From positions 1 to 64,000 of the forward strand of contig JAGBXX010000014.1 in NCBI GenBank assembly GCA_017629035.1: a DNA stretch of 64,000 nucleotides, read 5' to 3'. Of the stretch, positions 40,547 through 59,147 are shown piece by piece. Position 1 is the stretch's first letter. Every line of letters starts with the position of its first letter. A program made the translations under genes and the position numbers. Origin of the DNA: Alistipes sp. (GTDB taxonomy: Bacteria > Bacteroidota > Bacteroidia > Bacteroidales > Rikenellaceae). The notes below the pieces were generated by a model. It was not told the DNA's origin, searched no databases, and was given only the letters and a program-made list of their open reading frames with translations.

Positions 40547-40568
40547 AATGTTGCTCTTTTACAGTGAG

Positions 40569-42026: not shown

Positions 42027-42057
42027 TTTGGAAATTATATTTATTTATATATATTTG
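42027..42057 (+). promoter_or_regulatory. Promoter of the SusCD-protease operon
   Basis: TTTG (42027-42030), 19 bases, TATATTTG (42050-42057): exact consensus, about 30 bases before the SusC start. The same -33 / spacing / -7 pattern drives the CotH-like gene. Confidence 0.8.
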
Positions 42058-42087
42058 TGTGCGTAAAATAAGACTAAAGTAATAGTT

Positions 42088-45030
42088 ATGAATAATATAT
42101 CCATAAAAGTTTTATTTCTGTGCACACTGCTCTGCCTAGGCATAAGCACCCTATCGGCACAGAATATGGTAAAGGTTAGTGGACAGGTGACCGACGGCGA
42201 CACCTCGGCACCAGTGCCTGGCACCAGCGTAATATGGGGTCCTACCTCGGGCACAACGACCGACATAGATGGCCGATATTCGGTGTCTGTTGCCCCAGGC
42301 ACAACACTCTCGTTCGTCTACATCGGCTACGAGTCTGAGGAGTGGGTAGTACCCGAGGGCGTTAGCGAGATTACCCACGACGTAGTGCTCAAGGTCGAGT
42401 CACACATATTCGAGGAGGTTGTCGTCGTGGCATACGGAACACGCAAGAAGGGAACAATCGCCGGCTCGGTGTCGACAGTCAAGGCTGACAAGCTCGAGAG
42501 CGTGCCCGCAGCGGGCTTCGACCAGGCGTTGCAGGGTCAGAGCGCAGGACTCATGGTACTCTCGAACTCGGGCGAGCCATCAAAGGCTGCGACATTCCAA
42601 ATTCGAGGCACCAACTCTATCAACTCGGGCACCTCGCCACTCTTCATCCTCGATGGTGTGCCTATCACAAGCGCAGACTTCAACGCCATATCGCCCTCGG
42701 ACATCGAGTCAGTATCGGTGCTCAAGGATGCTTCGTCGTCGTCAATCTACGGTGCACGTGCTGCCAACGGCGTTGTAGTAATCACCACCAAGCGAGGCAC
42801 CTCGATGGGTGAAGCTAAAGTTTCGTTCCGTGCGCAGACAGGTATCTCGCAGCTTGCTCACGGCAACTGGAACCTGATGAACACCTCGGAGCGCATAGAG
42901 TTCGAGAAGATGGTGGGCTTGGATACGGGCAAGAACTACGATATACTGTCTAAGACCGATGTAAACTGGATGGATGTTGTCTTCAACGACGCTGCATGGC
43001 TGCAGAACTACGACCTCTCGGTGAGCAGCGCAACAGAGAAGATGAACTACTACGTATCGGGGTCATTCTTCGATCAGGATGGTATCGCCCAGGGCTCTAT
43101 GTTCCGCCGCTTCAGCATACGTGCCAATGCCGACGTGCGTGCCTCGAAGTGGCTACGTGTGGGCACAAACACCATGGCGGTTTATGAGCAGGTGCAGCAG
43201 GCCGAGGATGGTCAGTATGCACTCTACTCGCCTATCTCGGCGAGCCGCTTCATGCTCCCCTACTGGAATCCATACCGTGAGGATGGCTCGATAGCCTCTG
43301 AGAGCGATGGCTCATGGAAGGGAACAGGCCAGAACCCTCTGGAGTGGATGGAGAACAACCCTCAGACAAACAAGAAGTACAAGCTGCTCACCACGCTCTT
43401 TGCTGAGATCACCCCAATCAAGGATCTCACCATACGCTCGCAGTTTGGTGCCGACTTCACAAACTCCACGACATTCATGCAGTCTATGCCAAGCTATGCG
43501 CCAAACAACGGTATTGGCGTGGCAGGACGTGCGGCATACAACACCCTTAATCTCACAATAACCAACACCATAAACTATCGCCGCAGCGTGGGCGAGGGTC
43601 ACTCGCTTAACTTCATGCTCGGCCACGAGGGTGTGAGCAACCACTACGAGGGCTTCCAGGCTATCGTGCAGGGCCAGAACAACGACTTTCTCACAACACT
43701 CTCCTCAGGCTCGAGAGCTATCTCGTGGGCCGATGTCACAAGCTCGTACGCCTTTCTCTCATTCTTCGCACGTGGAGAGTATGACTACGATAGTCGCTAC
43801 TATGCCGACTTCTCGGTGCGTACCGACGCCTCATCACGCTTTGGCCGTAGCGGCCGCTGGGCAACATTCTGGTCTGTGGGCCTCATGTGGAATGCAGGTC
43901 GTGAGTCGTTCCTTGCCGATGTACACTGGCTCAGCAACGCACAGCTGGCAGTGAGCACAGGTACCTCGGGTAACTCATCGATTCCGAACTACGACCACCT
44001 AGCACTCGTGGGCGGTGGCGCTAACTACAACGACTCGATGGGTATCTACCCTATGCAGAGTGGTAACGAGAATCTCGGCTGGGAGAAGCTTTGGACAACA
44101 AACGTAGCTCTCCACCTCGGTTTCTGGCACAGAGTAAACCTCGACGTGGAGTTCTACAACAAGCTCACCACCGATATGCTCATGTCCGTGCCTGTGTCGT
44201 ATGCCGACAAGGGCGAGGGCTTCCGCTGGGACAATATCGGAGCAATGGTAAACCGTGGTGTGGAGCTTCAGCTCAACGCCAACATTATCGATAGGCCAAA
44301 CTTCATCTGGAGCCTGTCGGCCAACGTGTCGTACAACAAAAACAGAATCACCGAGCTATACAACGGCCTGGACGAGTATGAGCTCTCGTCGACAAGCACA
44401 AAGCTCGTTGTGGGCCACTCCGTGGGCGAGTTCTACGTCAACCGCTATGCTGGCGTGAACCCCGCAAATGGCGATGCACTATGGCTCACGAAGGATGGAG
44501 AGGTGACCACCGAGTTCAACGAGTCGGACAAGGTGATGATTGGCAAGAGCTACATCGCACCATGGCAGGGAGGCTTTGGCACACGTATCAGCTGGCACGG
44601 CTTGTCGCTCTCGGCGCAGTTTGCATGGGTGGCAGATAGGTGGATGTTCAACAACGACCGTTTCTTCGAGGAGAGCAACGGCTTGTACTCTACCTACAAC
44701 CAATCACGCCGCATACTCTACGACGGATGGAAAAAGCCAGGCGATGTCACCGACATTCCTCGTTATGGCGTGACACCACAGATGGACTCTCGCTTCTTGG
44801 AGGATGCATCGTTCCTACGCCTTAAGAATGTGATGCTCAGCTACTCGCTGCCATCACAGCTGCTCCAGCGATCTAAGTTCTTCAGCTCGGCACGCATTTA
44901 TATCCAGGCACAGAATCTATTTACCCTCACAGCCTTCACGGGCATTGACCCCGAGGCTACGGGCAACGTCTATCAGGCACAATACCCCATGTCACGTCAG
45001 TGGTCGTTGGGCGTAGACTTAACATTCTAA
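42088..45030 (+). CDS. SusC/RagA-family TonB-dependent receptor of the protease operon
   Basis: 980 residues with a signal peptide (ending near LSAQN), a CarboxypepD_reg-like domain (VKVSGQVTDGDTSAPVPGTS), a TonB box (EEVVVVAYGT), the SusC plug (FQIRGTNSINSGTSPLFILD; ISPSDIESVSVLKDASSSSI; YGARAANGVVVITTKRG) and a 22-strand-type barrel ending SRQWSLGVDLTF. It imports the substrate captured by the SusD partner encoded 14 bases downstream. The operon has a protease and no glycan-degrading enzyme, so a peptide substrate, as in RagAB of Porphyromonas, is the best inference. Confidence 0.96.
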   Translation: MNNISIKVLFLCTLLCLGISTLSAQNMVKVSGQVTDGDTSAPVPGTSVIWGPTSGTTTDIDGRYSVSVAPGTTLSFVYIGYESEEWVVPEGVSEITHDVVLKVESHIFEEVVVVAYGTRKKGTIAGSVSTVKADKLESVPAAGFDQALQGQSAGLMVLSNSGEPSKAATFQIRGTNSINSGTSPLFILDGVPITSADFNAISPSDIESVSVLKDASSSSIYGARAANGVVVITTKRGTSMGEAKVSFRAQTGISQLAHGNWNLMNTSERIEFEKMVGLDTGKNYDILSKTDVNWMDVVFNDAAWLQNYDLSVSSATEKMNYYVSGSFFDQDGIAQGSMFRRFSIRANADVRASKWLRVGTNTMAVYEQVQQAEDGQYALYSPISASRFMLPYWNPYREDGSIASESDGSWKGTGQNPLEWMENNPQTNKKYKLLTTLFAEITPIKDLTIRSQFGADFTNSTTFMQSMPSYAPNNGIGVAGRAAYNTLNLTITNTINYRRSVGEGHSLNFMLGHEGVSNHYEGFQAIVQGQNNDFLTTLSSGSRAISWADVTSSYAFLSFFARGEYDYDSRYYADFSVRTDASSRFGRSGRWATFWSVGLMWNAGRESFLADVHWLSNAQLAVSTGTSGNSSIPNYDHLALVGGGANYNDSMGIYPMQSGNENLGWEKLWTTNVALHLGFWHRVNLDVEFYNKLTTDMLMSVPVSYADKGEGFRWDNIGAMVNRGVELQLNANIIDRPNFIWSLSANVSYNKNRITELYNGLDEYELSSTSTKLVVGHSVGEFYVNRYAGVNPANGDALWLTKDGEVTTEFNESDKVMIGKSYIAPWQGGFGTRISWHGLSLSAQFAWVADRWMFNNDRFFEESNGLYSTYNQSRRILYDGWKKPGDVTDIPRYGVTPQMDSRFLEDASFLRLKNVMLSYSLPSQLLQRSKFFSSARIYIQAQNLFTLTAFTGIDPEATGNVYQAQYPMSRQWSLGVDLTF

Positions 45031-45043
45031 TTATCTGCACGCT

Positions 45044-46558
45044 ATGAGAAAACTATATAGACTAATACTCGGTATCGTGACCCTGGCAACCATCGCCACA
45101 ACTACCACCTCGTGTTTGGAGAAGTACCCCGAGGATGCTATCCCTGCCGACAAGGCGATCAACACCCTCGAGGAGTTTGACCAGGCAGCTATCGGCCTCT
45201 ACGAGAGCTTCCTCAGCGGTGCTCTATACAGCGGATACCTCACACTCCTACCCGATATTCAGTGCGACATGGTGCACGCTGTGAATGGATATACCAACAC
45301 CTATGGCAACATCTGGCGCTGGGATATTCTGGCAACAAACAGCGAGATAACCGCAGTCTACGCATCGCTCTACCAGACTATTGCTCGTGCTAACTTCATG
45401 CTCGAGTACGCCCCACGTGTCAAGACAACACTTCTTACCGAGGCCGAGCATAAGCACTTCGACCAGATCTCGGGCGAGGCATACTTTGCCCGTGCGATGG
45501 CATACTCCGAGCTTATCAAGCTCTTCTGCAAGAGCTACGAGAGCCCAGAGCAGGCAGACAAGGAGCTTGGCGTGGTCATCGTGACAAAGTACTACAGCGA
45601 CGAGCCTATGGTGCGCTCATCGCTACAAAAGTCCTACGAGCAGGTTATTTCGGACCTCGACACTGCGGCTGAGCTTATGAAGATAAGCGGCGACGTGGCG
45701 CTCTACAGCTCCTCGTATTTCAACGAGTACACAGCCTACGCCCTGCGTGCACGTGTGGCTCTATATATGAAGGATTGGGATGCGGCAATTGAGTACTCAT
45801 CACGAGTTATCGAGAGCGGATACTACCTTCTCTCCTCGGCAACAGCGATGTACACCTCGAACATGAGCTACTTCACCTACATGTGGCAGTACGACGACGC
45901 TACGGAGATAATCTGGAAGGTGGGCTTCACACCTAACTCGTATGGTGGTGCGCTGGGCGAGGTATTCTTCAACTACGACTACTCGTCGATGAAGCCTGAC
46001 TACGTACCTTCGGAGTGGGTGCTCAACCTCTACGATGTCGAGGATCTGCGCTATGGCAACTACTTCTACACCTACACCACAGGACATAGCCACGGCCTCA
46101 CATGGCCTCTCTTGGTCAAATATTTTGGCAACATGAATTTCTACAACCAGCAGATTCTGCACACCTCGATGCCTAAGCCTCTGCGCCTTGCCGAGCAGTA
46201 TCTCATACGTGCCGAGGCATACGCCGCTATGGGCAACTATGCAGCTGCAGGTGCCGATATTGCTACGCTGCGTGCCGCACGCTACACCTCGTATGGTAGC
46301 AGTGTGTCGATGACCGAGAGCTCGGCAATGACAATCATCGAGCAGGAGCGCATCAAGGAGCTATACATGGAGGGTTTCCGACTTATGGACCTCAAGCGCT
46401 GGCATAAGGGCTTTGAGCGTAAGCCACAAACAGAGTCGCTCGAGCATGGATCATCGCTCAAGATCGAGGCCGACGACCCACGCTTTGTATGGCCTATACC
46501 ACAGCACGAGCTCGAGTCACCAGGCTCGATGATCGAACCTAACGAGAGCAACAAATAA
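45044..46558 (+). CDS. SusD/RagB-family substrate-binding lipoprotein
   Basis: 504 residues with lipobox TTSC then LEKYPEDAIP. SusD features: FDQAAIGLYESF, ISGEAYFARAMAYSELIKLF, TPR-like helices, and the C-terminal RLAEQYLIRAEAYAAMGNYA, ERIKELYMEGFRLMDLKRWH and FVWPIPQHEL. It sits on the cell surface as the lid of the SusC transporter. It is coupled to the SusC gene by short spacing. Confidence 0.96.
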   Translation: MRKLYRLILGIVTLATIATTTTSCLEKYPEDAIPADKAINTLEEFDQAAIGLYESFLSGALYSGYLTLLPDIQCDMVHAVNGYTNTYGNIWRWDILATNSEITAVYASLYQTIARANFMLEYAPRVKTTLLTEAEHKHFDQISGEAYFARAMAYSELIKLFCKSYESPEQADKELGVVIVTKYYSDEPMVRSSLQKSYEQVISDLDTAAELMKISGDVALYSSSYFNEYTAYALRARVALYMKDWDAAIEYSSRVIESGYYLLSSATAMYTSNMSYFTYMWQYDDATEIIWKVGFTPNSYGGALGEVFFNYDYSSMKPDYVPSEWVLNLYDVEDLRYGNYFYTYTTGHSHGLTWPLLVKYFGNMNFYNQQILHTSMPKPLRLAEQYLIRAEAYAAMGNYAAAGADIATLRAARYTSYGSSVSMTESSAMTIIEQERIKELYMEGFRLMDLKRWHKGFERKPQTESLEHGSSLKIEADDPRFVWPIPQHELESPGSMIEPNESNK

Positions 46559-46572
46559 CACATCATACAACA

Positions 46573-47460
46573 ATGAGATCTCATATAATTTTACCCTTTA
46601 TTGCACTCTCAGCACTGCTCACTTTAGGCGTAAGCTGCCAGAGCGAGAGACCTACATACACAGGCCCCGACTACATACTCTTCTCGAGCGATAGCCACAC
46701 AATTGGCGTTGTCGACAACGAGGAGTGGTTCGAGATAGCGGTTTCGGCAACACGCACCTCGAGCGAGGATAGATATTTTGGTGTCGAGGTCGTTGCATCG
46801 GAGAGTAGCGCTATCGAGGGTCTACACTACACCCTCGAGTCTAACACTCTGTGTATCAAGGCTGGCGAGCTAACAACAGCCGTGCGCATACAGGGACATG
46901 CCGACAATATCTACATCAACCAGTCACTCGGCATTAAACTCCGCCTGGTGCTCGACGACGAGAAGATATGGGAGGAGTATGGCACCGACACCGAGATTAC
47001 GATGCAGCGCTGCTGCGAGTTCGACATCAACACCTTCACGGGATATGCCGTGCTCACATCGTCGTGGAGCATGCAGTATATGAACGTGGAGTCGAGATTG
47101 GTGCATACGCATCTCGACACTACGCAGGAGAACACCGTGGTTATCGAGGATATGTTCTACGATGGCTACGATATAGGTTTCAGGCTCGATTCTGAGGATC
47201 GTCTTAACCCCATTGTCACCCTCTGTGGCGAGCAGGTACTTGGCTCTACTGGCGAGGCCTTCGGCACTGTATATGGCAATGGCGAGCTGATGATTGGCAA
47301 CACCATGGGCTATGTGTCGTACTTCGGCATGTGCGAGAAGTTTGTTGTCATCTACTCGACAATCTATGTCGAGGAGGTGGGCACCGTGGGCAACTATGTG
47401 AATATCCTGGAGTGGATTAGCGACGAGGAGGCTGAGCGAATAATGCGCGAAGGTCTGTAA
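46573..47460 (+). CDS. Surface lipoprotein of the SusCD operon (DUF4984/DUF4843-like)
   Basis: 295 residues. Lipobox GVSC then QSERPTYTGPDY. The N-terminal ~130 residues form a Calx-beta-like sandwich (YILFSSDSHTIGVVDNEEWF; VEVVASESSAIEGLHYTLES) seen in lipoproteins that follow SusD in many Bacteroidetes loci. Function is unknown; it is likely an accessory binding protein at the cell surface. Exact DUF number is uncertain. Confidence 0.7.
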   Translation: MRSHIILPFIALSALLTLGVSCQSERPTYTGPDYILFSSDSHTIGVVDNEEWFEIAVSATRTSSEDRYFGVEVVASESSAIEGLHYTLESNTLCIKAGELTTAVRIQGHADNIYINQSLGIKLRLVLDDEKIWEEYGTDTEITMQRCCEFDINTFTGYAVLTSSWSMQYMNVESRLVHTHLDTTQENTVVIEDMFYDGYDIGFRLDSEDRLNPIVTLCGEQVLGSTGEAFGTVYGNGELMIGNTMGYVSYFGMCEKFVVIYSTIYVEEVGTVGNYVNILEWISDEEAERIMREGL

Positions 47461-47487
47461 ACAAATGAATAAGAAAAAGATAGAGAT

Positions 47488-49035
47488 ATGAGAAGAGTAT
47501 TTGGACAACTACTTATTTTAGCATCACTGCTACTCTTTGCTTCGTGTGAGCAGCCCGAGCAGCACAAGGCTGAGTTCCCCACACCTACCACCATTGAGTG
47601 CATGGCTGGCGACAAGGTTACGCTCGAGTTTAGCGTCGAGAGCAACTGGCAGCTATCATCCGATGCCACATGGTGCAAATTTATCACCGCTGCTGGCGAG
47701 GTACTCGACACCTCGGGCAAGGCGGGCAGACACACCATGACACTACGCATAGGCAGCGAGGGTCTTAAGGATGAGGTTACCAAGGCCAACATCAGCATGA
47801 AGCTCAACGGCGAGAGCCGCACAATAGCCACAATAGAGCGTGGTGCTAAGGAGCTTACGCTCAAGGTGTATAACAGCGAGGGCAAGAGCACGGAGAGTAT
47901 CGAGATTGGCTACTCAGAGTGGATAACAACATACATCGAGGCCAACTTCCGCTTTGCAGCCACCGACTTCCCCGAGTGGGTGGAGATCGAGGGTGGCTCG
48001 ATAACTGGTACAGCGGATGAGAGAGTCGAGGCACGCCTACGTATCGTGCCCGATGGCGACCGTGAGCGTTTTGCCTTTGACAGCTCCAAGGGTCACACCA
48101 TAACCTTTGCCGACGAGGCGGGCAAGATAAGCTTTGAGTTCGCACTGACATACAAGGGCATGGGCGAGGATAATCTCACCTTCACAGCACCTACGGCCAA
48201 CACCTTTGGCTGGGAGGTATCGCTCGATGGCACCATCTTCCAGCAGATGAACGAGGAGGAGCAGCTGGTAACATTCAACAACTCGCTCGAGTTCTCAATC
48301 ACAGCCCAGGATGACAATTACGCCATTCTCTACCTCGAGCAGGTGGTAGACCGTGGCATACCTTCGTACAACGTTTTTACCGAGGAGCAGGATTGTTGGA
48401 TGCACTTCGACAAGGCAACAATGACCCTCGAGGTGGATAGCACTACGTTGACTCGCTATGGCGTGGTGATGGCACTGCCTATGGGCATATACAACGATAT
48501 TGCGGCCGACATCACGGGCAACATCTTCGAGCTCGACTACACCTCGGGTATCGGTATCGAGACACTCATATACGACATGCTTAGGTATGTTATCATCGAT
48601 TTTGTGCAGCACGACCTCGAAGAGAAGAGCGCCTACGAGGGTATGTATATCTACCACTCGCTGACAACCTGGGAGATCCCTGCTACACGAATTACCAACG
48701 CTGAGCTTACCGAGAAGTATGGCACAACGGAGATCTTCGAGGCTCCATTTGTCAATAGCGTCCAGGGCAAGCGCCCAGGTATCATCATAGACCCACGCAT
48801 CGAGGAGTGGACAACGCTCACTGCCGAGGAGGGACGTGCCACAGCCGAGGTATGGCATGGCGACAGGCAGCTCAAAATCAGCGACAACGAGTACTACATG
48901 GGTGAGAACATGGAGGAGGTTATGTCGCTCCACCTGTGGGGCCCTCAGGCAGAGTTCAGCGAGAATGTCGTGGTGGTATTCAAGCTCGATGGCATGGTGC
49001 GCAAGCTCCTTGTTGTGACACCCCCAGCAAAGTAA
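47488..49035 (+). CDS. Surface lipoprotein of the SusCD operon (BACON-like/DUF5003-like)
   Basis: 515 residues. Lipobox FASC then EQPEQHK. A BACON-like beta-sandwich occupies about residues 25-120 (ECMAGDKVTLEFSVESNWQL, SSDATWCKF), followed by two further beta-rich domains. No catalytic motif is seen. BACON domains occur in many Bacteroidetes surface proteins and are proposed to bind glycans or glycoproteins, or to act as spacers. It lies 27 bases after the preceding lipoprotein gene. Confidence 0.7.
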   Translation: MRRVFGQLLILASLLLFASCEQPEQHKAEFPTPTTIECMAGDKVTLEFSVESNWQLSSDATWCKFITAAGEVLDTSGKAGRHTMTLRIGSEGLKDEVTKANISMKLNGESRTIATIERGAKELTLKVYNSEGKSTESIEIGYSEWITTYIEANFRFAATDFPEWVEIEGGSITGTADERVEARLRIVPDGDRERFAFDSSKGHTITFADEAGKISFEFALTYKGMGEDNLTFTAPTANTFGWEVSLDGTIFQQMNEEEQLVTFNNSLEFSITAQDDNYAILYLEQVVDRGIPSYNVFTEEQDCWMHFDKATMTLEVDSTTLTRYGVVMALPMGIYNDIAADITGNIFELDYTSGIGIETLIYDMLRYVIIDFVQHDLEEKSAYEGMYIYHSLTTWEIPATRITNAELTEKYGTTEIFEAPFVNSVQGKRPGIIIDPRIEEWTTLTAEEGRATAEVWHGDRQLKISDNEYYMGENMEEVMSLHLWGPQAEFSENVVVVFKLDGMVRKLLVVTPPAK

Positions 49036-49056
49036 CACTGCATAAAACAAAAAAGT

Positions 49057-51678
49057 ATGATACAGCGATTTTTCACATATCTTCTTAGCGCCTTTGTAGC
49101 TCTGACACTACTTGCGGGCTGCGCTAAGAGTGACGAGGACATCAATGGGGAGTATGGCTACGTGCAGTTCAAGCTCGTCAAGGCCTCGCAGGCAGAGGAC
49201 TCGTCGACACGTGCCGAGGAGCTCGAATGGCTCTCACAGGCCCATAAGATTACTGTGGTGATGCAGTGTGACGGCTCGACAATCACGCAGACACTACCAC
49301 TCTCGAGCTACGACACAGAGTCGGCCGAGTGGGGTCTATATAGCGAGAAGCTACGTCTGCTCACTGGCCAGTACAACGTCATTGGCTACTACCTCTACGA
49401 CAACCTCGACCAGCAGCTACTAACAGGCGAGGGTGCTGGCACATTTACGGTCACAAACCGAGGCCTTGTGTCCAAGCAGATTGGTGTGGAGTGTGTCGAG
49501 CGAGGCAAGATCTCGTTTGCGCTATTCAAGGCCATAGAGACCCGCTACGAGGCTAAGGGCGACTACCCCTTTGAGAGTGTTAAATCTATCGACGTAACGG
49601 TGCGCAACAAGTTTACAAACGAGATTACCACCTTCACCTCGATGACCACATCCTACTACGAGGCCTTTGTCGAGGGCTCAATGGACAAGGAGCTCTACGA
49701 CTACAACGGCAAAAGCGCCTACATGGTCTGCAGCGGCGAGTACTGGATCAAGGCGGGCAACTACGAGATCACGTCGTACACCACCTACTCAGACGCTAAG
49801 GGCAAAAACCGACTCGAGACAGCTACTATTGCCGACCTCGATGAGTTTGACTTTACCGTTAAGGACAATCAGCGTGGCGAGTTTGTCATCGTGCCAATCA
49901 TACTCTCCAGAACAGCAGAGTATATCAAAGATTACGAGGCACTTAAGGCTATATGGCTCGCTCTCGATGGCCCTAACTGGACATTCCACGGCGAGGAGTA
50001 CAACGCACGCACCAACTGGAACTTCAACAAGGATATAGATATGTGGGGCGACCAGCCAGGTGTTACGCTCGATGGTGATGGCCGTGTTGTTGGCCTCAAT
50101 ATCTCGGGCTTTGGTGCTCGTGGTGTTGTGCCCGAGGAGATTGGTCAGCTCACAAAGCTCAAGACACTATACCTTGGCAACCACAACGAGCTCATTGGCG
50201 GCTACGAGGATCTCTCGGCACGCATCAGCGCCATGGACTACCACGACCGCTACCTTAAGCGTGATACACGTGAGGGACTCACTCCCGAGCTTCGAGATAT
50301 CATAAACCGTGGCGGCGAGCTGCGCCCTATCCTGCAGTCTAAGCCCCAGAAGCGTGACGTGGCATTTGGTAATCTTACCAACGGCATCACGGGTATCTCA
50401 CGTGCCATGATGCGCCTCACTGAGCTTGAGCAGTTCTACATCGCTAACTCACCTATCACCAGCGACACCTTTATCACCGAACTTGCACCAAACTCTAAGT
50501 ATAAGAGCGAGGAGGAGAGCTGGAGCTGGGGTAACTTCACCATGCTTATGGACTTCGAGATATACAACTGCTCGAAGCTCGACAAGCTCCCATGCGAGAT
50601 GCTCGCAGGGCTCCCTGCGCTCCAGTCGGTGAACCTGTCGATGAACCAGGGCATATCTGCCGAGCAGCTCAAGGCGGACTGGGAGGCGATAATCGATGGT
50701 GCATCGGGCGACGACATCCAGATTTTGTACCTCAGTGGAAATAATCTGCGTGAGACACCCTCGCACGACTACCTCAAGCGCATGACAAAGCTCGGTCTGC
50801 TCGACCTCAACTCCAACAAGCTGGAGGTGGTGCACCCATTTGGCAAGGAGATCAACCTCACAACGATATACCTTGACTTCAACAACATCAAGGAGATCAA
50901 GGCTGCCGAGGATGGATACTTCTGCGGCATGAGCCAGCTCGAGACATTCTCATGCTCGAACAACGCCCTCACAGAGCTTCCCGACATCTTCACAGCACGC
51001 TCGGTATACACCATGCTATCGGCCGACTTCTCGTCGAACAAGATATCTAAGCTTGCAGGTGGCGAGTCTTGGCAGGGTATCAACACCTCGACACTCAACC
51101 TTGCAAACAACCGCTTCGAGGAGCTTCCCGCACGCATCATGAAGTCGGGCTCTCGCATCGAGACACTCATGCTCAGCAGCAACGGCATACGCAAGATTGA
51201 GGAGGGAGCACTCACAGGCCCTTATAGCTACTACATCACAACACTCGACCTGAGCTACAACCGTCTTAGCGAGATCCCCTACAACGACTTCAGCGCTACA
51301 AACCTACCATACCTCTATGGTATAGACCTCTCGAACAATGCCCTTAGCGAGTTCCCCTACGCTCCGCTATCTATCAACTCGCTCACGGTAATCAGCGTGC
51401 GCTGCCAGCGTGACGACGAGGGTAATAGAACACTCTCGGAGTGGCCCACAGGCATAGCATCGTGCCCCAAGCTCTCGGCATTCTACATCGGCTCGAACGA
51501 TCTACGCAAGATCGAAGATACCATATCGCCATATATCATGATCTTCGAGATTAAGGATAACCCTAATATCTCGATCGACCTCTCGGAGGTTTGTCCATAT
51601 ATCGAGATGGACTACTACCTTCTAATCTACGACTCAACCCAGGATATACGTGGCTGCGATGCACTTGATCTTGACTAA
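49057..51678 (+). CDS. Leucine-rich-repeat surface lipoprotein (DUF4458-like N-terminus)
   Basis: 873 residues. Lipobox LAGC then AKSDEDINGEYG. The N-terminal ~290 residues are beta-rich (YVQFKLVKASQAED; RGKISFALFKAIETRY), like DUF4458. From about residue 300 an LRR solenoid begins with a plant-type cap (YEALKAIWLALDGPNWTFHG ... NWNFNKDIDMWG) and repeats such as VVGLNISGFGARGVVPEEIG, LGLLDLNSNKLEVVHPF, STLNLANNRFEELPARIM and TLDLSYNRLSEIPYNDF. LRR solenoids bind proteins, so this is a candidate substrate- or host-protein-binding module next to the protease gene. Confidence 0.85.
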   Translation: MIQRFFTYLLSAFVALTLLAGCAKSDEDINGEYGYVQFKLVKASQAEDSSTRAEELEWLSQAHKITVVMQCDGSTITQTLPLSSYDTESAEWGLYSEKLRLLTGQYNVIGYYLYDNLDQQLLTGEGAGTFTVTNRGLVSKQIGVECVERGKISFALFKAIETRYEAKGDYPFESVKSIDVTVRNKFTNEITTFTSMTTSYYEAFVEGSMDKELYDYNGKSAYMVCSGEYWIKAGNYEITSYTTYSDAKGKNRLETATIADLDEFDFTVKDNQRGEFVIVPIILSRTAEYIKDYEALKAIWLALDGPNWTFHGEEYNARTNWNFNKDIDMWGDQPGVTLDGDGRVVGLNISGFGARGVVPEEIGQLTKLKTLYLGNHNELIGGYEDLSARISAMDYHDRYLKRDTREGLTPELRDIINRGGELRPILQSKPQKRDVAFGNLTNGITGISRAMMRLTELEQFYIANSPITSDTFITELAPNSKYKSEEESWSWGNFTMLMDFEIYNCSKLDKLPCEMLAGLPALQSVNLSMNQGISAEQLKADWEAIIDGASGDDIQILYLSGNNLRETPSHDYLKRMTKLGLLDLNSNKLEVVHPFGKEINLTTIYLDFNNIKEIKAAEDGYFCGMSQLETFSCSNNALTELPDIFTARSVYTMLSADFSSNKISKLAGGESWQGINTSTLNLANNRFEELPARIMKSGSRIETLMLSSNGIRKIEEGALTGPYSYYITTLDLSYNRLSEIPYNDFSATNLPYLYGIDLSNNALSEFPYAPLSINSLTVISVRCQRDDEGNRTLSEWPTGIASCPKLSAFYIGSNDLRKIEDTISPYIMIFEIKDNPNISIDLSEVCPYIEMDYYLLIYDSTQDIRGCDALDLD

Positions 51679-51690
51679 AGCTTTTGGAGT

Positions 51691-53358
51691 ATGAAAAAGA
51701 GATTATATATACTTTTTGCCCTCGTGGCCATGGTAACGACATCGTGCCAGAGGGAGATAGAGACAATACATGGTTTCGAGACCGACCTCGCAGCAATCGA
51801 GGCTGAGGCTCATGGTGGTGAGTTCAGAGTCTCGATACGCTCTGAAAAGGAGTGGACTGCCGTAACCGACGTGCCATGGATCATGGTATCACCGGCTAAT
51901 GGCCGTGGTGAGGTGCGCTGCGTGGTGAAGATCGACTCTACACTTATCAACGACAGCCGCTCAACAAGCATACGCTTCTCGTCTGAGGGTCAGGCACTCG
52001 ACATACTCGAGGTGGTGCAGCAGGGCTATGCCAAGATGATCGAGCCAAGCAGCGATGTTGTGACAATCAAGGCCTCGGCACCACGCACAGAGCGTAACTT
52101 CGAGGTGGAGATCAACACCAACGTGGAGTTCGACATCAAGGCCGACTATGGCCAGGATGAGGAGTGGCTCAAGGTCTACGACTACTCGCTCACGCTCGAC
52201 CGTGGAGCACGTCCACGCAAGACTGTGCTGAGCATAGACTGGAAGATGAACTCCGTGCCCGAGGCTCGTGAGGCAACGCTCAGACTATGCACCAAGTCGG
52301 GCGAGGAGTTATCGAAGATATGCGTTCGTCAGGCGGCAGCACCTCTTATCGAGGATAGTCGTGCGGGCGACTCGCTGGCGATTGTGACAATCTACGAGAA
52401 GCTCAACTGCTGGGCCGAGAGCACAATATCGACCACCGAGAGCATGAGCCACTGGGAGGCAATACGTCTATGGGAGGCGTCCGACCGTACACTCCCATGC
52501 AAGGAGGCGATAGGCCGTGTGCGTGACCTCGACTTGAGCTACTTCAACACCGAGGATGATCTTCCTGTGGAGCTCAAATATCTCAAGTATCTCGAGACTC
52601 TATCGCTCTATGGCAATGTAAATACCATGATTAAGGATATTCACATCTGCGAGGAGCTGTGCGATCTGGAGTATTTGAAGGCTCTGCGTATCGGCGCATT
52701 TGGTCTTGTGGAGCTTCCAGAGAGCTTCGTTAAGCTCGGCGACACGCTCGAGACCCTTGATCTTAACTCGAACAACTTTGTCGAGATTCCAGCGATCCTC
52801 ACTCAGGAGAACTTCCCACAGCTCAGATCCCTCGACCTTTCGAGCAACCGTCGACACATCATCGCCGACCTACGCTCTGCTACATCCTTTGACAAGGGTG
52901 TAGGTATGCACGACAAGGGCGAGCGTCTACGCAAACTATTCATGTGGGAGAACCTCGAGGAGCTCCTCCTCTCGTACAACTACCTCGAGGGAGGCATTCC
53001 AGAGTTTGAGCCAGGGGTTGATGGCGTAAGAGCATATAGCGCCGAGGATGTCACAGAGCGTGGCGACTCGATTAACTGGGCTGTGGAGCGAGGCTTGCCC
53101 TACATCCTTCCAAACATGCGTCGCCTGATGATCAACCTCAACTACTTCACAGGCAACATCCCCGACTGGTTACTCTACCACCCACGACTTCTGGAGTGGA
53201 GTCCCGAGAACCTTATCTACGTTCAGCAGGAGAAGGGCGTGGATAGCAACGGCAGAGCAGTGGGATTCTCCAACCAGCCTACATCGCGCGAGTACTATTT
53301 CGAGAAGTATCCGCTGCTTCGTGATCGTTTTGAGTTTAACGACGTAATTGAGGAGTAA
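51691..53358 (+). CDS. BACON plus leucine-rich-repeat surface lipoprotein
   Basis: 555 residues. Lipobox TTSC then QREIETIHG. Two BACON-like domains (EAHGGEFRVSIRSEKEWTAV, TDVPWIMVSP; then ERNFEVEINTNVEFDIK) precede an LRR region (LKYLETLSLYGNVNTM; ETLDLNSNNFVEIPAIL; LRSLDLSSNRRHI; MRRLMINLNYFTGNIPDWL). It is shorter than the preceding LRR protein and of a different domain order, so the two are not a simple tandem duplication. It starts 12 bases after the previous stop, and the protease starts one base after its own stop. Confidence 0.83.
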   Translation: MKKRLYILFALVAMVTTSCQREIETIHGFETDLAAIEAEAHGGEFRVSIRSEKEWTAVTDVPWIMVSPANGRGEVRCVVKIDSTLINDSRSTSIRFSSEGQALDILEVVQQGYAKMIEPSSDVVTIKASAPRTERNFEVEINTNVEFDIKADYGQDEEWLKVYDYSLTLDRGARPRKTVLSIDWKMNSVPEAREATLRLCTKSGEELSKICVRQAAAPLIEDSRAGDSLAIVTIYEKLNCWAESTISTTESMSHWEAIRLWEASDRTLPCKEAIGRVRDLDLSYFNTEDDLPVELKYLKYLETLSLYGNVNTMIKDIHICEELCDLEYLKALRIGAFGLVELPESFVKLGDTLETLDLNSNNFVEIPAILTQENFPQLRSLDLSSNRRHIIADLRSATSFDKGVGMHDKGERLRKLFMWENLEELLLSYNYLEGGIPEFEPGVDGVRAYSAEDVTERGDSINWAVERGLPYILPNMRRLMINLNYFTGNIPDWLLYHPRLLEWSPENLIYVQQEKGVDSNGRAVGFSNQPTSREYYFEKYPLLRDRFEFNDVIEE

Positions 53359-53359
53359 T

Positions 53360-55399
53360 ATGAGAAGATTTATCATACTTTTGGCTCTTGCGGCTATGGG
53401 CACGGCCTGCACCAAAGATTTTGAGCCAACACCCATAGTTGGGGGCGACAACACTCTTAATATACCATTCGACGCTACGCAGGGCGAGATTATCATCAAG
53501 TTCAAGCCAGAGATGGAGTCTATTCTCGACATGACAATGACTCGCTCTGGAGCTGAGGCCACACGTTCGGGCATACCCTCGACCGACGAGGTGCTCGACA
53601 TTCTGGGAGCATACTCCTTTGAGCGAGTATTTCCCGTAGACCCTCGCCACGAGGAGCGCACACGTGAGTCGGGCCTGCACCTATGGTATATCGTGCACTT
53701 TGACCACAACGAGGATATAGCCTCGGCCTACGAGCGCCTATCGCAGCTTGGCGAGGTCGATAAGTTGCAGTGCAACCGCAATATTGAGCGTGCCTACAAC
53801 CCTGCATCTAATCCACGCTTTATCAGCTGCGAGGAGGCTAATGCCTACGCCACAACACGTAGCTCCGAGGGGGCATTCAACGACCCTGAGCTCTATCGTC
53901 AGTGGTGCTACATCAACGATGGCACCGCCCCCTTTGCTCAGGAGTGGGCTGCGGTAATCGAGGGCTGCGACGCTGGCTGCGAGGAGGCCTGGAAGCTATG
54001 CACAGGCGACGAGGATATCATCGTCGCGGTATTCGACGAGGCGGTGATGTGGAACCATCCCGACCTCCAGGATAATATATGGGTAAACCATGCCGAGGAG
54101 CTCCATGCGGGCAAGGATGGTGACGGCAACGGATATATCGATGACCGCTATGGTTATAACTTTGTGCGCAACACAGGTATTACATCCTGGACATCGAACG
54201 GCAGCACAGGCCATGGCACTCACGTTGCTGGCACAGTGGCCGCAGTGAACGACAACGGCATAGGCTGCGCAGGTATCGCTGGTGGTGGCAAGGGCAAGGG
54301 CGGCGTGAAGATCATGACCTGCCAGCTCTTTGACGGCATGAACACCTGCTCACTGGCCATGGAGGCACGTGCGATGAAGTATGCTGCCGACAATGGTGCC
54401 GTTATCATACAGTGTTCATGGGGTTATAACTCCTCGAAGTCAAATGCTATTTTGGGCTACACCCCAGGCCCTGCAACCGAAGAGGAGTGGGCAGCGCTCT
54501 ACCCTCTGGAGAAGGAGGCTATCGACTACTTTGTGCACTGCGCCGGCTCGCCTAATGGTGTCATTGACGGAGGTCTTGCGATATTTGCCTCGGGCAACGA
54601 GTACGCAGCGCAGTCGTCGTTCCCTGCAGCATACTCTAAGTGCATCTCCGTTGCAGCTCTTGCTGCCGACTACACCCCAGCCTCATACTCGAACTATGGT
54701 AGCGAGGTGTTGCTCTCTGCACCAGGTGGCGATATGGAGTACTACGGCACACCAGGCATGAGCGACAACCAGTACAACGATAGCGGCATATTGTGCGAGC
54801 AGGGAGGTATCTTCTCAACGCTTGTCTTGAACGGCGTGGCGGGCTACGGATACTACGAGGGTACGTCGATGGCATGTCCTCATGTAGCGGGTGTTGCAGC
54901 TCTTGGACTATCCTATGCTAAGCAGCTCAAGCGCCACTTCACAGCCGAGGAGTTCCGTAGTCTGATGTATACTTCGGCTCGAGATATAGACAACTACTTC
55001 GTAGGAGAGAAGCTCTACTACCTACACCACGAGTCGGCAGGTGCTACGCCTACGAAGATGAACCTCGAGGAGTATCGTGGCAAGATGGGTCGTCTGACCG
55101 ACGCTGGTGCGCTACTCAAGGCTATCGAGGGCAGCGGTCGAGATATGATACTTCCGAACATCTGCCTTGGCGTGGGTGCTACAACAAAGCTCAACCTCGA
55201 CGACTACTTCACAACAGAGGCAACAGGCGTAGAGGTCGGCAACAGCGCCATAGCGACAGCCAAGCTCGAGGGCAAGATTGTGACAATCGAGGCTATTGCT
55301 GAGGGGCAGACAACACTCACACTCAAGTTCTCGGACGGCACCGAGCAGAGGTCGACAATCACCGTGCGCCGAAGCACAAACGACAAGGGTTGGTTGTAA
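53360..55399 (+). CDS. Subtilisin-family (S8) serine protease, lipoprotein
   Basis: 679 residues from the ATG at 53360, chosen over an upstream in-frame ATG (53348) because it follows GAGGAGTAAT and begins the signal peptide MRRFIILLALAAMGTAC (Cys17 lipobox). A pro-region with a fervidolysin-like pattern (GEIIIKFKPEMESILDM; VDKLQCNRNIERAY) precedes the peptidase domain. The catalytic triad is complete: Asp about 226 in IVAVFDEAV, His about 285 in GHGTHVAG, Ser about 503 in GTSMACPHVAG; the oxyanion Asn is in FASGNEYA. The Asp motif reads FDEAV instead of the common (I/L)DTG. The C-terminal ~100 residues form a BIG2-like beta domain. It would cleave proteins at the cell surface and feed peptides to SusCD. 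Confidence 0.93.
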   Translation: MRRFIILLALAAMGTACTKDFEPTPIVGGDNTLNIPFDATQGEIIIKFKPEMESILDMTMTRSGAEATRSGIPSTDEVLDILGAYSFERVFPVDPRHEERTRESGLHLWYIVHFDHNEDIASAYERLSQLGEVDKLQCNRNIERAYNPASNPRFISCEEANAYATTRSSEGAFNDPELYRQWCYINDGTAPFAQEWAAVIEGCDAGCEEAWKLCTGDEDIIVAVFDEAVMWNHPDLQDNIWVNHAEELHAGKDGDGNGYIDDRYGYNFVRNTGITSWTSNGSTGHGTHVAGTVAAVNDNGIGCAGIAGGGKGKGGVKIMTCQLFDGMNTCSLAMEARAMKYAADNGAVIIQCSWGYNSSKSNAILGYTPGPATEEEWAALYPLEKEAIDYFVHCAGSPNGVIDGGLAIFASGNEYAAQSSFPAAYSKCISVAALAADYTPASYSNYGSEVLLSAPGGDMEYYGTPGMSDNQYNDSGILCEQGGIFSTLVLNGVAGYGYYEGTSMACPHVAGVAALGLSYAKQLKRHFTAEEFRSLMYTSARDIDNYFVGEKLYYLHHESAGATPTKMNLEEYRGKMGRLTDAGALLKAIEGSGRDMILPNICLGVGATTKLNLDDYFTTEATGVEVGNSAIATAKLEGKIVTIEAIAEGQTTLTLKFSDGTEQRSTITVRRSTNDKGWL

Positions 55400-55401
55400 G
55401 G

Positions 55402-56184
55402 ATGCGACTGGTAAGGCATATAGCAGCTATTGTGACTCTTCTGGGCCTTGCTCTCCAGAGCGTAAGCGCACAGAGCGACAGGCTCCCTACACGTGAGGAG
55501 CTTGAGGGCGCTGTGCACCCCAAGCTCTCTATCACCGCTAAGCGAGGTGTTGCGGCCGAGAGTGCCACGATAGATATTGGCACAATAGAGAGCACGACGA
55601 GTGCAACGTGTGAGTTTGTAGTGCGCAACACCACATCGAGCACGGTGGTCATCACCCAGCTACGCTCAACATGCAGCTGCCTCAAACTACTCACACGCCC
55701 CAAGGCACTACGTGCAGGAGAGAGCATGGCAATCGAGGTGGAGTTCAACCCCTCGGGGCGTGAGGGTAAGTTCAGCAAGGAGGTATACATCTACACCTCG
55801 CTCGATGGCAACTACCCCACCGAGAAGCTGACGCTCAAGGGCGAGATATTGTCTAAGGATGAGTGGTCGCACCTACCTGTACGAATGGGTGTTCTGCGCC
55901 TGAGTCGCAAGAGCGTAACCCTTGATAACAAGAGCCGCTCGGCACGCATCGTAGTGGTCAACACCTCGGCAAACCCCATAACTCTAACCTCAAATCCAAC
56001 AACACCAGGTATAGAGTTTCGCACCGAGCCTCGGGTGCTTATGCCCAACGTGGAGTCCGACATTGTGATTAGCTACAAAACCACGAAGGAGATTACCAGC
56101 GAGATAGAGAGCATGTTGATAATCGAGGGGTGCGGCACAGCACGCCCAACAGAACGAATGATAAAGATAAAAATAAGAAGATAG
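55402..56184 (+). CDS. DUF1573 periplasmic/surface protein
   Basis: 260 residues from the ATG at 55402, two bases after the protease stop. It has a signal peptide (cleaved near SVSAQS) but no lipobox. A DUF1573 (Ig/ASH-like) domain is clear: IDIGTIESTTSATCEFVVRN, TCSCLKLLTRP with its CSC pair, and EVEFNPSGREGKFSKEVYIY. A second, weaker copy follows. DUF1573 proteins are common in Bacteroidetes with unknown function. Coupling to the protease suggests a linked role. Confidence 0.82.
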   Translation: MRLVRHIAAIVTLLGLALQSVSAQSDRLPTREELEGAVHPKLSITAKRGVAAESATIDIGTIESTTSATCEFVVRNTTSSTVVITQLRSTCSCLKLLTRPKALRAGESMAIEVEFNPSGREGKFSKEVYIYTSLDGNYPTEKLTLKGEILSKDEWSHLPVRMGVLRLSRKSVTLDNKSRSARIVVVNTSANPITLTSNPTTPGIEFRTEPRVLMPNVESDIVISYKTTKEITSEIESMLIIEGCGTARPTERMIKIKIRR

Positions 56185-56186
56185 AT

Positions 56187-56639
56187 ATGAGATATTTCAA
56201 ACCAATTTGCCTCATTGCGGCACTCTTAAGTCTTGTTGCTATGACAAGCTGCGAGAGGCCTACACCAACACCCCAGAGTGAGAAAATCGCTCTCACGTAC
56301 CAGATAATTGATGGCTGCTGGCAGCTCAGCCACCTGCAGGGCACGCCAATTTCGGAAGATACCTATCTATATATAGAGTTTGACCGCACGCAGCACCGCT
56401 ACACCATGTGGGATAATATGGACTCTATGTATGGCACCAAGACCACAGGCACATTTGCTATCAGCGAGCAGGATGGCACCTACACCCTATCGGGTACATA
56501 CGACTATGGCGTGGGCGTGTGGAACAACAAATATATCGTAGAGCTACCTGATGAGGATAGTATGTTGTGGAGGTCACAGGGCGAAAATTATGAGGTGATG
56601 GAGTTTGTGCGCATTGACAATATTCCCGAGCTGAACTAA
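56187..56639 (+). CDS. Small lipocalin-like lipoprotein
   Basis: 150 residues from the ATG at 56187, two bases after the DUF1573 stop; the longer in-frame ATG lies inside that gene. Lipobox MTSC then ERPTPTP. The body, IIDGCWQLSHLQGTPISEDT through YLYIEFDRTQHRYTMWD and GTFAISEQDGTYTLSG, fits the lipocalin-like barrels (DUF5004-like) of Bacteroidetes. Function is unknown; a small hydrophobic or substrate-binding role is possible. Confidence 0.75.
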   Translation: MRYFKPICLIAALLSLVAMTSCERPTPTPQSEKIALTYQIIDGCWQLSHLQGTPISEDTYLYIEFDRTQHRYTMWDNMDSMYGTKTTGTFAISEQDGTYTLSGTYDYGVGVWNNKYIVELPDEDSMLWRSQGENYEVMEFVRIDNIPELN

Positions 56640-56665
56640 AATAACAACTAATATAAAACTAAACT

Positions 56666-59092
56666 ATGAAGATCAGACAATTTGCAGTCGCTATTATGGC
56701 GGCGGTTGTTGCACTCGCAGGATGGAGTTGCGACAAGGAGCCTACTGAGACTCCCGTGGAGAAGCCAACGATTGGCATCATGGAGCCTGAGTTCAACGCC
56801 GAGACTATGGAGCTCAGCGTGATGATCGCCCCATCGACCGACACCGAGGCGTGGTACTGGATGGTTAAGGGTGGCATCGACACCGATGATGCTATGATGA
56901 CCAAGGAGGAGGGCGCAGCAGCCAAGGAGATTAAGTTCACGGTTAAGTATGGTGTGGAGTACACTATCACTGCCTATGCCGAGAACAAGGCGGGCAAGAG
57001 CGACATCGCAGAGAAGAAGTTCTGCGCTATGCCCGAGGGTGAGGTGGCTCTAACGATTGGCGAGATTACCATCAACGAAGATACATCTATGGCAGAGGCC
57101 ACTATCTACCCATCGAAGGCTACCGAGGTGTGGTACTGGCAGAGCTATGCTACGGATGAGGACAACTCTACATTGGACTGGAACGTCGTGGAGGGCAACA
57201 CAGAGATGGTTATCAGCTTCCCATACACTTGGGGTAAGACTATGGAGCTTCGTGCCTATGCCGAGTGTGGTAACATCACAAGCGATATAGTTACAGCAGA
57301 GTGCTTCTTCGAGCTTGCAGTGCCTACAATCACAGTATCTAAGCCTCACTTCGACGAGGCAACGATGACCGTGAGCTTCGACGTTACACCATCGGAGGAG
57401 ACAGACCACTGGTGCTATGGCATCAAGGGTGGCCAGCAGACAACAATCGAGGGCAACGAGGCCAAGAGTGTAGAGTTCAAGGTTGAGTACGACAAGGAGT
57501 ACGAGTTTATCTTCCGTGCAGAGAATGCTATCAACGAGGGCGAGGAGAAGGTTGTTGACTTCTGCGTTATCTCTCCAGTAGCTGAGGTTACTATCGAAAA
57601 CCTTACAGCCTACACTCTCGACGCTGTTGTAACAAAGAAGGAGCACTGCGTACGCTATGTGGCAGGTATTGTTCACACATCGGCTTACGACCGCAACACC
57701 TTCGTAGAGCAGGCACAGGCCTCGCTCAACCCAGATCCAAGCTACCCATTTGCTGTATTTAACTCAGCAACCGAGAGCCGCACATTCTCTGAGCAGGATC
57801 TCGTGCGCAACTCACGCACAGATAGCAACGAGAATGCTGGTATCATCCTTCTGCCAAATACTTCGTACACAATTGCCATATATGGCGAGAACCAGAAGGG
57901 TAACTACACCGTTACAACCAAGGAGGTAGTTGTCCCCGAGGCAGTGATCAACGGCGATACTGCTATCAGCGTCGAGGTATCTGAGGTAGGACTTACATCG
58001 GCTAAGGCTACGATAACTGCTGAGGCTGGCTGCAAGGTGCTCTCAGGATATATCGACCCAGCACTTGCTAAGGCCGACACTGAGAATCCTTTCGACTTCG
58101 AGGGTAAGAGCGACCAGGAGATCAAGGCCTACATCGCAAGTGCGGTGAAGGGTGTGCCTACAATCTACACCGAGCCATTCACATATACTCTCAGCGATCT
58201 CTTTGCTATCGACACTGAGTATATCGCCTACGCCGTAGCTATCAAGGATGGCAAGATTGGTGAGGTTACATTCGAGCCATTCAAGACCTTGCGTCCTTCG
58301 CTCACGGGCGTAGCAGAGATCACTGCTGCCGAGATCGTGCCACAGACATCTCACGAGACTCTCACCGTAAAGCTCACCGTAGACAGCAATGCCCAGAAGG
58401 TACGTCTTTATGCAGCTCCTGCGTCTGACCACTCAGCCTACGCCGACAACCTTGAGTATGTAATGGATGCTGACGAGTATCAGAACTACCGCGAGGAGTA
58501 CAACATCGAGAATGGCGTGGCTACATGCGTCGTTGACATCTACCACCCTGCTGCTAACTACTACATGTACGCTTCGGCAGTAGATGCTAATGGTCGTGCA
58601 GGTAAGATGGTATGTGTAACTAAGCTCGCTGGCCTCGACACTGAGTACTACACTACGATGGAGGAGGTTATCGAGGAGGGCTCACTCAGCTATAAGGGTA
58701 CTGGCGATGCAACACTCTTAGTCGAGGTTCAGGATGTTGTCGACGACCGTATCAGCGCAGTGCTCACAGCAACACAGTTCAGCGACAATGTTGACAAGGT
58801 ATGGTTCATCCGCTACAACGGTAAGATCTCAGAGGTAGAGAGCCAGGTTAAGGAGGCTCTTGTTGAGTATGTGGAGAAGAACAAGATTATCGGCTCGTAC
58901 AAGATTGCCAAGGAGGATATCGGCGTTAAGTATATCGACGGCGGCAGCTCATGGGATCCTAAGTACGAGGCACTTCAGTCGTACGACGACCAGTGGGGCG
59001 GCGACATAGTCGTGATGGTTATCCTTGATACTGACGGCAAGGTTAAGATTCACAGCTACTATGCTGCGGGCCGTGATGTTACAAAACTCTAA
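56666..59092 (+). CDS. Large repeat lipoprotein with FN3-like modules
   Basis: 808 residues, last gene of the operon. Lipobox GWSC then DKEPTETP. The first ~430 residues hold at least four similar beta-sandwich repeats with a recurring pattern: a TMxLSVMIxPSxDTEAWYWM or TMTVSFDVTPSEETDHWCYG strand and a FTVKYGVEYTITAYAENK or FKVEYDKEYEFIFRAENA strand. The remaining part is also beta-rich without a catalytic motif. It ends before a bidirectional terminator. It is probably an extended surface stalk or binding protein. Confidence 0.75.
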   Translation: MKIRQFAVAIMAAVVALAGWSCDKEPTETPVEKPTIGIMEPEFNAETMELSVMIAPSTDTEAWYWMVKGGIDTDDAMMTKEEGAAAKEIKFTVKYGVEYTITAYAENKAGKSDIAEKKFCAMPEGEVALTIGEITINEDTSMAEATIYPSKATEVWYWQSYATDEDNSTLDWNVVEGNTEMVISFPYTWGKTMELRAYAECGNITSDIVTAECFFELAVPTITVSKPHFDEATMTVSFDVTPSEETDHWCYGIKGGQQTTIEGNEAKSVEFKVEYDKEYEFIFRAENAINEGEEKVVDFCVISPVAEVTIENLTAYTLDAVVTKKEHCVRYVAGIVHTSAYDRNTFVEQAQASLNPDPSYPFAVFNSATESRTFSEQDLVRNSRTDSNENAGIILLPNTSYTIAIYGENQKGNYTVTTKEVVVPEAVINGDTAISVEVSEVGLTSAKATITAEAGCKVLSGYIDPALAKADTENPFDFEGKSDQEIKAYIASAVKGVPTIYTEPFTYTLSDLFAIDTEYIAYAVAIKDGKIGEVTFEPFKTLRPSLTGVAEITAAEIVPQTSHETLTVKLTVDSNAQKVRLYAAPASDHSAYADNLEYVMDADEYQNYREEYNIENGVATCVVDIYHPAANYYMYASAVDANGRAGKMVCVTKLAGLDTEYYTTMEEVIEEGSLSYKGTGDATLLVEVQDVVDDRISAVLTATQFSDNVDKVWFIRYNGKISEVESQVKEALVEYVEKNKIIGSYKIAKEDIGVKYIDGGSSWDPKYEALQSYDDQWGGDIVVMVILDTDGKVKIHSYYAAGRDVTKL

Positions 59093-59111
59093 GCCCTAAG
59101 CCTGAAATAAC

Positions 59112-59147
59112 AAAAGAGGCACTACCCATTGCGGTAGTGCCTCTTTT
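59112..59147. terminator. Bidirectional terminator after the SusCD-protease operon
   Basis: AAAAGAGGCACTACC / GGTAGTGCCTCTTTT, a 15-bp perfect stem with a 6-base loop. It serves the plus-strand operon and the convergent lpxC-lpxA operon. Confidence 0.95.

Follow-up and report, generated by a model that had tools for sequence, protein, structure and literature searches.

What does an operon do that opens with the genes of a SusC-SusD importer, encodes a protease and contains no recognisable glycan enzyme? The question is raised by ten plus-strand genes (42088-59092) in a 64,000-nucleotide stretch of Alistipes sp. DNA (GenBank assembly GCA_017629035.1, contig JAGBXX010000014.1, positions 1 to 64,000), referred to here as the window. 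The source genome is 1.8 Mb and 85% complete, and the window begins at the contig start. We consider it probable, at roughly 0.6, that the genes form an outer-membrane protein-utilisation operon, in which a protein would be captured by lipoproteins and cut by an S8 protease, the peptides usually being imported through a RagAB-like SusCD pair. The receptor and protease part is separable from its own pump in several Alistipes lineages. The gene set is known already; the repeated absence of the importer, with the rest retained, is new.

A predicted operon with a protease and no recognised glycan enzyme

In the open reading frame (ORF) map of the window the ten genes form a single co-directional run, in the order SusC, SusD, DUF4984, DUF5003, DUF4458-LRR_10, BACON-LRR, S8, DUF1573, lipocalin-like and a last gene termed g10. 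Stop-to-start gaps are 13, 14, 27, 21, 12, 1, 2, 2 and 26 nt, with ATG taken as the start of genes 7, 8 and 9 (53360, 55402 and 56187). The tight packing described in the initial annotation was borne out, with a measured range of 1-27 nt in place of the 1-30 bases stated there. A pattern match to a Bacteroidetes-type promoter, TTTG-N19-TATATTTG, lies upstream on the plus strand at 42027..42057, and fits what we take to be the -33/-7 pattern of these promoters. The pattern has eight matches in 64 kb (0.28 expected), of which this is the only one within 42-59 kb; E. coli-type sigma-70 promoters had 16 matches in the operon region, no more than chance would give (17.9 expected). A likely bidirectional terminator follows between convergent genes (59112..59147): an inverted repeat of 15 bp, perfect and with A/T ends. 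One promoter and one terminator bracket the ten genes, as had been proposed, and this layout supports their assignment to one predicted operon.

The first gene (42088..45030) encodes a 980-amino-acid (aa) TonB-dependent transporter of the SusC/RagA family (TIGR04056, 778 bits; Plug and CarbopepD_reg_2 domains), and the second (45044..46558) a 504-aa SusD/RagB lipoprotein lid (PF14322 and PF07980, with solved SusD/RagB relatives). A SusC barrel with a CarboxypepD_reg N-terminal domain and a plug, followed by a protein of the SusD_RagB family, makes up a SusC-SusD transport pair. Next come a 295-aa DUF4984 lipoprotein (46573..47460; PF16372, 172 bits), which has a weak DUF4843/Calx-beta match in its N-terminal part and whose profile found a single, chance-level match in the PDB, and a 515-aa DUF5003 lipoprotein (47488..49035; PF16394, 138 bits), modelled as tandem Ig-like beta sandwiches (AlphaFold2 pLDDT 92, Foldseek). 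The two leucine-rich-repeat (LRR) lipoproteins noted initially were identified by Pfam as an 873-aa DUF4458, LRR_10 and LRR protein (49057..51678) and a 555-aa BACON and LRR protein (51691..53358; PF13004, LRR_4 and LRR_8). The former matches the solved structure 4ECN, which we take to be BT_0210, over its full length (733 bits); 4ECN and 4ECO are the two structures of this LRR lipoprotein family. The remaining genes encode a 679-aa S8 subtilisin-like protease lipoprotein with a Peptidase_S8_N domain (53360..55399; PF16361, 139 bits; PF00082, 133 bits), a 260-aa DUF1573 protein with a signal peptide and without a lipobox (55402..56184; PF07610, 85 bits), a 150-aa Lipocalin_4-like small lipoprotein (56187..56639; PF13648 in 28 of 32 aligned members) and g10, an 808-aa lipoprotein (56666..59092) which has no convincing Pfam match and whose all-beta model (pLDDT 88) suggests tandem FN3/Ig-like domains. 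The Foldseek matches listed for the DUF5003 and g10 models have TM-scores of 0.06-0.36, and are therefore informative only as 'Ig/FN3-like'.

Among solved SusC structures RagA is closest to the window SusC (589 bits; next 407). The window SusD matches RagB at 63 bits and reaches 75 bits with other SusD structures. RagA and RagB form the oligopeptide importer of Porphyromonas gingivalis, and the parallel drawn with it initially stands as far as the nearest solved structure of SusC is concerned, but does not fix the substrate. The RagAB locus presumably consists of two genes, without LRR, DUF or protease genes. The SusCD complex Bt2261-64, which we take to have co-encoded extra lipoproteins, differs in that its SusC scores only 102 bits against the window SusC. 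In the available text of PMC7782687, the structures of both RagAB and Bt2261-64 contain oligopeptides.

The arrangement also resembles a Sus-like polysaccharide utilisation locus (PUL), in that SusC and SusD come first, lipoproteins follow and a single promoter precedes them. SusCD layouts and BACON domains often occur in PULs. The lipoproteins could then bind a glycan while the S8 protease trims the protein part (of mucin, for example), and SusCD would import oligosaccharides or glycopeptides released by enzymes whose genes lie elsewhere; in one relative a GH2 glycoside hydrolase gene lies directly behind the lipocalin gene (L134:9834-12332). However, a PUL has at least one carbohydrate-active enzyme with its SusCD pair, and the ten genes have none: in agreement with the initial annotation, a Pfam scan gave no match to glycoside hydrolase or other glycan-enzyme families in any of the ten proteins. 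A glycoside hydrolase hidden in DUF5003 or g10 was rejected, as the predicted models of both are all-beta tandem sandwiches. The SusC is moreover nearest to a peptide importer, and the module survives without SusCD, as described below; a polysaccharide or glycoprotein locus thus appears doubtful.

Distribution of the operon

Genomes were scanned with the LRR_10 protein alignment as bait, which gave 355 relatives, and the best 80 were retained. Presence was scored over all reading frames, and fractions refer to loci with enough flank. Among the best 80 of 355, DUF4984 (73/73), DUF5003 (77/77), BACON-LRR (73/73), S8 (67/67) and lipocalin (67/67) were always present, DUF1573 was found in 65/67, SusD in 57/70, SusC in 54/66 and g10 in 31/58; because these loci are the closest LRR_10 relatives, the ratios are upper figures. 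A second set of 24 loci, hand-chosen from search matches, gave DUF4984 in 23/23, DUF5003 in 21/23, BACON-LRR in 24/24, g10 in 9/20, SusD in 19/23, SusC in 15/18, and S8, DUF1573 and lipocalin in 19/23 each. DUF4984 and BACON-LRR were never absent beside the bait where the flank suffices.

Gene order is kept across Alistipes, Bacteroides, Phocaeicola, Prevotella/Leyella and one Marinifilaceae metagenome-assembled genome (MAG), and the nearest relatives of the window locus are Alistipes MAGs from ruminant guts. Loci of B. faecis and B. finegoldii (L151, L152, L171) contain nine of the ten genes in the same order and no g10, an extra gene that occurs in Alistipes and a small number of relatives; the tail of one locus, L109, carries two g10-like ORFs. 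Identities between the B. faecis locus L152 and the window are 65% for SusC, 60% for SusD, 58% for S8, 49% for LRR_10 and 31% for DUF5003. In a sample of the order, the DUF4984 and full-length LRR_10 (>400 bits) models match the same 7 of 393 Bacteroidales genomes, the source genome included, and weaker LRR-only matches occur in 94 further genomes. Across the phylum, DUF4984 was found in 2 of 395 genomes, one of them the source genome.

The available table of PMC10434189 lists BT0207-08 of B. thetaiotaomicron as RagB/SusD and DUF4984, and BT0211-13 as BACON, S8 peptidase and DUF1573; these five genes match the window in name and order, and the text available gives them no function. Judging from gene order, BT0206, BT0209 and BT0210 probably complete the locus, BT0206-BT0213. 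Regulation by iron was set aside, since the fold changes in the same table are negative with p values of 0.084-0.57. A search of the open-access literature, with subscription papers mostly outside its reach, turned up no study of the operon's function. The operon is nevertheless common and not peculiar to the source genome: the neighbourhood of protease and LRR genes, for which a search had been suggested, was found in many gut Bacteroidales loci. With these loci, the five listed B. thetaiotaomicron genes, and 4ECN and 4ECO already solved, the suggestion that the composition may be undescribed does not hold.

In four of 23 loci of the 24-locus set, SusCD, DUF4984 and the LRR genes are present, and S8, DUF1573 and lipocalin are absent. 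Three of these (L087, L088 and L089) come from two other families, and the fourth (L098) is a divergent locus from the window's own genus group. All four have a third LRR protein where S8 would stand. LRR families match this protein in L087 and L088, and DUF4458 does so below the cut-off. L094 has SusCD and S8, and no space between DUF4984 and LRR_10, hence no DUF5003 gene; L089 has a same-sized protein in the DUF5003 place, beyond the reach of the DUF5003 profile. The constant core is DUF4984, LRR_10 and BACON-LRR, and binding seems to vary less than cutting or import.

Absence of SusCD from Alistipes loci

Thirteen of 36 Alistipes/Rikenellaceae loci lack both SusC and SusD, compared with 19 that carry the pair; in one more, a partial SusD stands at the end of its contig, and the flank of the other three is below the threshold. 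All eight other genes are kept at 12 of the 13, and the remaining locus (L114) ends at the contig end after S8. A move of SusCD to another site was rejected, as whole-genome searches of the 13 genomes found no ortholog. The best-scoring SusC match in these genomes had 30-33% identity, with short N-terminal pieces of up to 45%, and SusD had no match at 1e-15. Identities in SusCD-bearing Alistipes controls were 79-90% for SusC (n=7) and 76-80% for SusD (n=4 searched). Completeness is stated as 94-98% for four of the 13 genomes, and no value is given for the other nine.

A sister-species pair, L126 and L130, shows a clean SusCD deletion. Upstream, the two flanks can be aligned at 82% for 2,951 columns, until 45 nt before the SusC frame of L126, and the alignment restarts within DUF4984. 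We also built a quick LG+G4 tree of LRR_10 and S8 from 71 of 81 rows, ten having been dropped for short or missing proteins. SusCD presence switches at least six times on this tree (67 labelled rows), which alone cannot separate loss from gain. SusCD-less rows are confined to the Alistipes loci, and all labelled rows elsewhere bear SusCD. A SusCD-bearing pair, L106 and L108, lies inside an otherwise SusCD-less clade, so that regain by transfer is possible.

The strict promoter pattern matched 2 of 13 SusCD-less loci and 4 of 54 SusC upstream regions, and was then relaxed; across all genera the relaxed form is found at 20 of the 54 SusC starts, and so mainly suits Alistipes. Nine of the 13 SusCD-less loci have a match to the relaxed pattern in the 300 nt preceding DUF4984, compared with none of the 19 SusCD-bearing Alistipes loci; shuffling gave expectations of 0.30 and 0.08 respectively. 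Upstream of SusC the relaxed pattern was present at 14 of 18 SusCD-bearing Alistipes loci, one of the 19 having been dropped for a short flank.

Ten of the 19 SusCD-bearing Alistipes loci and 6 of the 13 SusCD-less ones, counting a rearranged copy in L167, are flanked by a divergent operon. The first gene of this operon encodes a 231-aa protein that by eye looks like a 4Fe-4S, heterodisulfide-reductase-like protein. The divergent operon was seen upstream of DUF4984 in L101, L109, L111, L123 and L130.

Ratios of nonsynonymous to synonymous substitution (dN/dS), which are approximate when synonymous sites have reached saturation, were mostly 0.06-0.30 in five SusCD-less pairs, with one value of 0.45 and two undefined through saturation. 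Four SusCD-bearing pairs gave 0.05-0.43, and S8 gave 0.06-0.12 in both sets. The low values in SusCD-less pairs indicate that the module is still under selection without the pump.

These results bear on a further explanation, namely that the LRR receptor and the S8 protease serve to disable a specific protein of the host or of bacteria, such as an antibody, an antimicrobial protein or a competitor's surface protein. Nutrient gain would then be secondary, and loss of SusCD easily tolerated. The similar dN/dS of the module after SusCD loss agrees with such a device for attack or evasion, as do its rarity in the phylum (2 of 395 genomes) and the LRR face described below, which is not markedly relaxed without SusCD. 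However, the presence of SusCD in 54 of 66 loci of the 80-locus set, and in every non-Alistipes locus with flank, fits feeding better. The only PADLOC match was to a generic subtilase model (44 bits), and an anti-phage defence system was rejected on this ground. We regard attack or evasion as unlikely.

The LRR_10 protein was analysed over seven canonical repeats (28 positions). In Alistipes (33 rows) the concave face had 0.58 bits compared with 0.56 for the structural core and 0.92 for the rest, and 158 of 10000 permutations were as low. Values for the SusCD-less loci were 0.55 (concave) and 0.85 (rest), against 0.47 and 0.71 in equal-sized SusCD-bearing draws. A face that is conserved in Alistipes and not markedly relaxed without SusCD suggests a constant ligand other than SusCD. 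Such a conserved partner might also belong to the cell itself, if S8 matured or cleared the cell's own surface lipoproteins or outer-membrane proteins and the LRR proteins held these clients; with 386 of 393 genomes of the order lacking a DUF4984 match, the operon is hardly housekeeping, and a processing station of this kind is highly improbable.

Protease, lipocalin and surface signals

The catalytic residues of the window S8 protein are D226, H285, N413 and S503, and the corresponding Asp, His, Asn and Ser are invariant in all 71 S8 rows longer than 600 aa, the window included. The protein has the Asp-His-Ser triad and oxyanion Asn of an S8 subtilase, and is predicted to be active; the intact residues and the lipobox uphold the earlier description of a protease lipoprotein with a full catalytic triad. 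Subtilases usually have D-[TS]-G as the Asp motif; here it is D-E-[AG] in 69 of 71 orthologs (residues 226-228 in the window protein).

The protease resembles the KLIKK proteases of Tannerella forsythia, which we take to have small lipoproteins nearby, matching mirolase (8ehe) over 368 residues at 36.5 bits; it differs in having no KLIKK ending. Every S8-bearing locus whose flank suffices (86 of 86) has the lipocalin gene, and two lipocalin genes lie in tandem in one SusCD-less locus (L123:17115-18096). We speculate that the lipocalin-like protein may guard against the S8 protease. A role as a potempin-like inhibitor stays within that speculation, since the lipocalin profile found no potempin in the PDB and gave chance matches only (best E 0.085).

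A lipobox is present in most SusD homologs and in those of DUF4984 (72/74), DUF5003 (75/78), LRR_10 (78/80), BACON-LRR (75/78), S8 (72/72), lipocalin (60/68) and g10 (17/37); DUF1573 has one in only 8/66. At least two acidic residues at positions +2 to +6 of the lipobox Cys were counted in DUF4984 (44/72), DUF5003 (57/75), LRR_10 (67/78), BACON-LRR (52/75), S8 (54/72), lipocalin (32/60) and g10 (11/17), and in 0/57 SusD; these are raw counts over lipobox-bearing homologs, with no background set for comparison. The acidic residues resemble surface export signals, and the lipoproteins that carry them may lie at the surface.

Neighbouring genes and a second locus

On the minus strand at 39797-41081 lie an extracytoplasmic-function (ECF) sigma-like gene, recognised by eye, and then a gene for a single-helix protein, separated from the operon by a tRNA-Met gene. 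The ECF sigma-like gene (40569-41081) was rejected as the operon's regulator, given the intervening tRNA gene and an upstream neighbourhood that varies among loci. The left edge of the window holds a partial SusC-like frame of 438 aa (208-1275).

The same genome contains a second SusC-SusD locus (L023, G000:C11, 4465-19618) with two S8_N and S8 proteases, each followed by a small lipoprotein of about 150 aa, one of which matches Lipocalin_4. These pairs are followed by a C10 peptidase, which has an I69 inhibitor domain, and by a BACON lipoprotein. The combination of SusCD with two S8 proteases and a C10 peptidase fits a bacterium living on proteins.

Discussion

From the gene content and order, the catalytic site, the lipoboxes with their acidic residues and the selection on the module, we propose the following scheme for protein utilisation. 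The surface lipoproteins DUF4984, usually DUF5003, DUF4458-LRR_10 and BACON-LRR would act in one complex as a receptor for a particular protein or glycoprotein, and the tethered S8 protease would cut the captured protein. The cleavage products would normally enter as peptides through the RagAB-like SusC/SusD pump; in pump-less Alistipes they may enter by another route, or the cut itself may be the benefit. The initial proposal of binding, cutting and importing a protein thus keeps the support of the operon layout, the lack of a glycan enzyme, the S8 and LRR genes and the nearness to RagA. Import as its essential purpose is given up, with SusCD missing at 13 Alistipes loci, no ortholog found in those genomes and the other genes persisting.

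Several observations weigh against protein utilisation in this form. Import is not universal, given the 13 Alistipes loci, nor is cutting, given the four loci without S8, and L094 is without a DUF5003 gene. The similarity of SusC to RagA is no guarantee of a peptide substrate. Conservation in the 80-locus set is biased upward, these being the best LRR_10 matches of 355. In a second LRR_10 set of 45 rows, made up of the window and 44 loci that are of non-Alistipes type or have short flanks, conservation was weaker on the concave face than in the core, with 1.02 against 0.82 bits and 1.31 for the rest. Finally, according to the available text of PMC6282197, a mutant of BT_0212 (S8) still cleaved EspB, with redundancy likely.

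A possible, more tentative reading is that the operon encodes a self-sufficient surface receptor machine, its core nearly always accompanied by a sandwich lipoprotein such as DUF5003, with SusCD and the protease as exchangeable outputs. In Alistipes the pump would have been repeatedly deleted, the promoter would now drive the receptor and protease module directly, and cutting itself would be adaptive.

SusCD systems are by default read as glycan importers, and a conserved, protease-bearing SusCD operon in gut Bacteroidales contrasts with this. Natural deletions separate its pump from the binding and cutting parts, and the version in B. thetaiotaomicron is open to genetic work. The operon is thus a testable case for the use of proteins, or for attack on them, by gut Bacteroidales.

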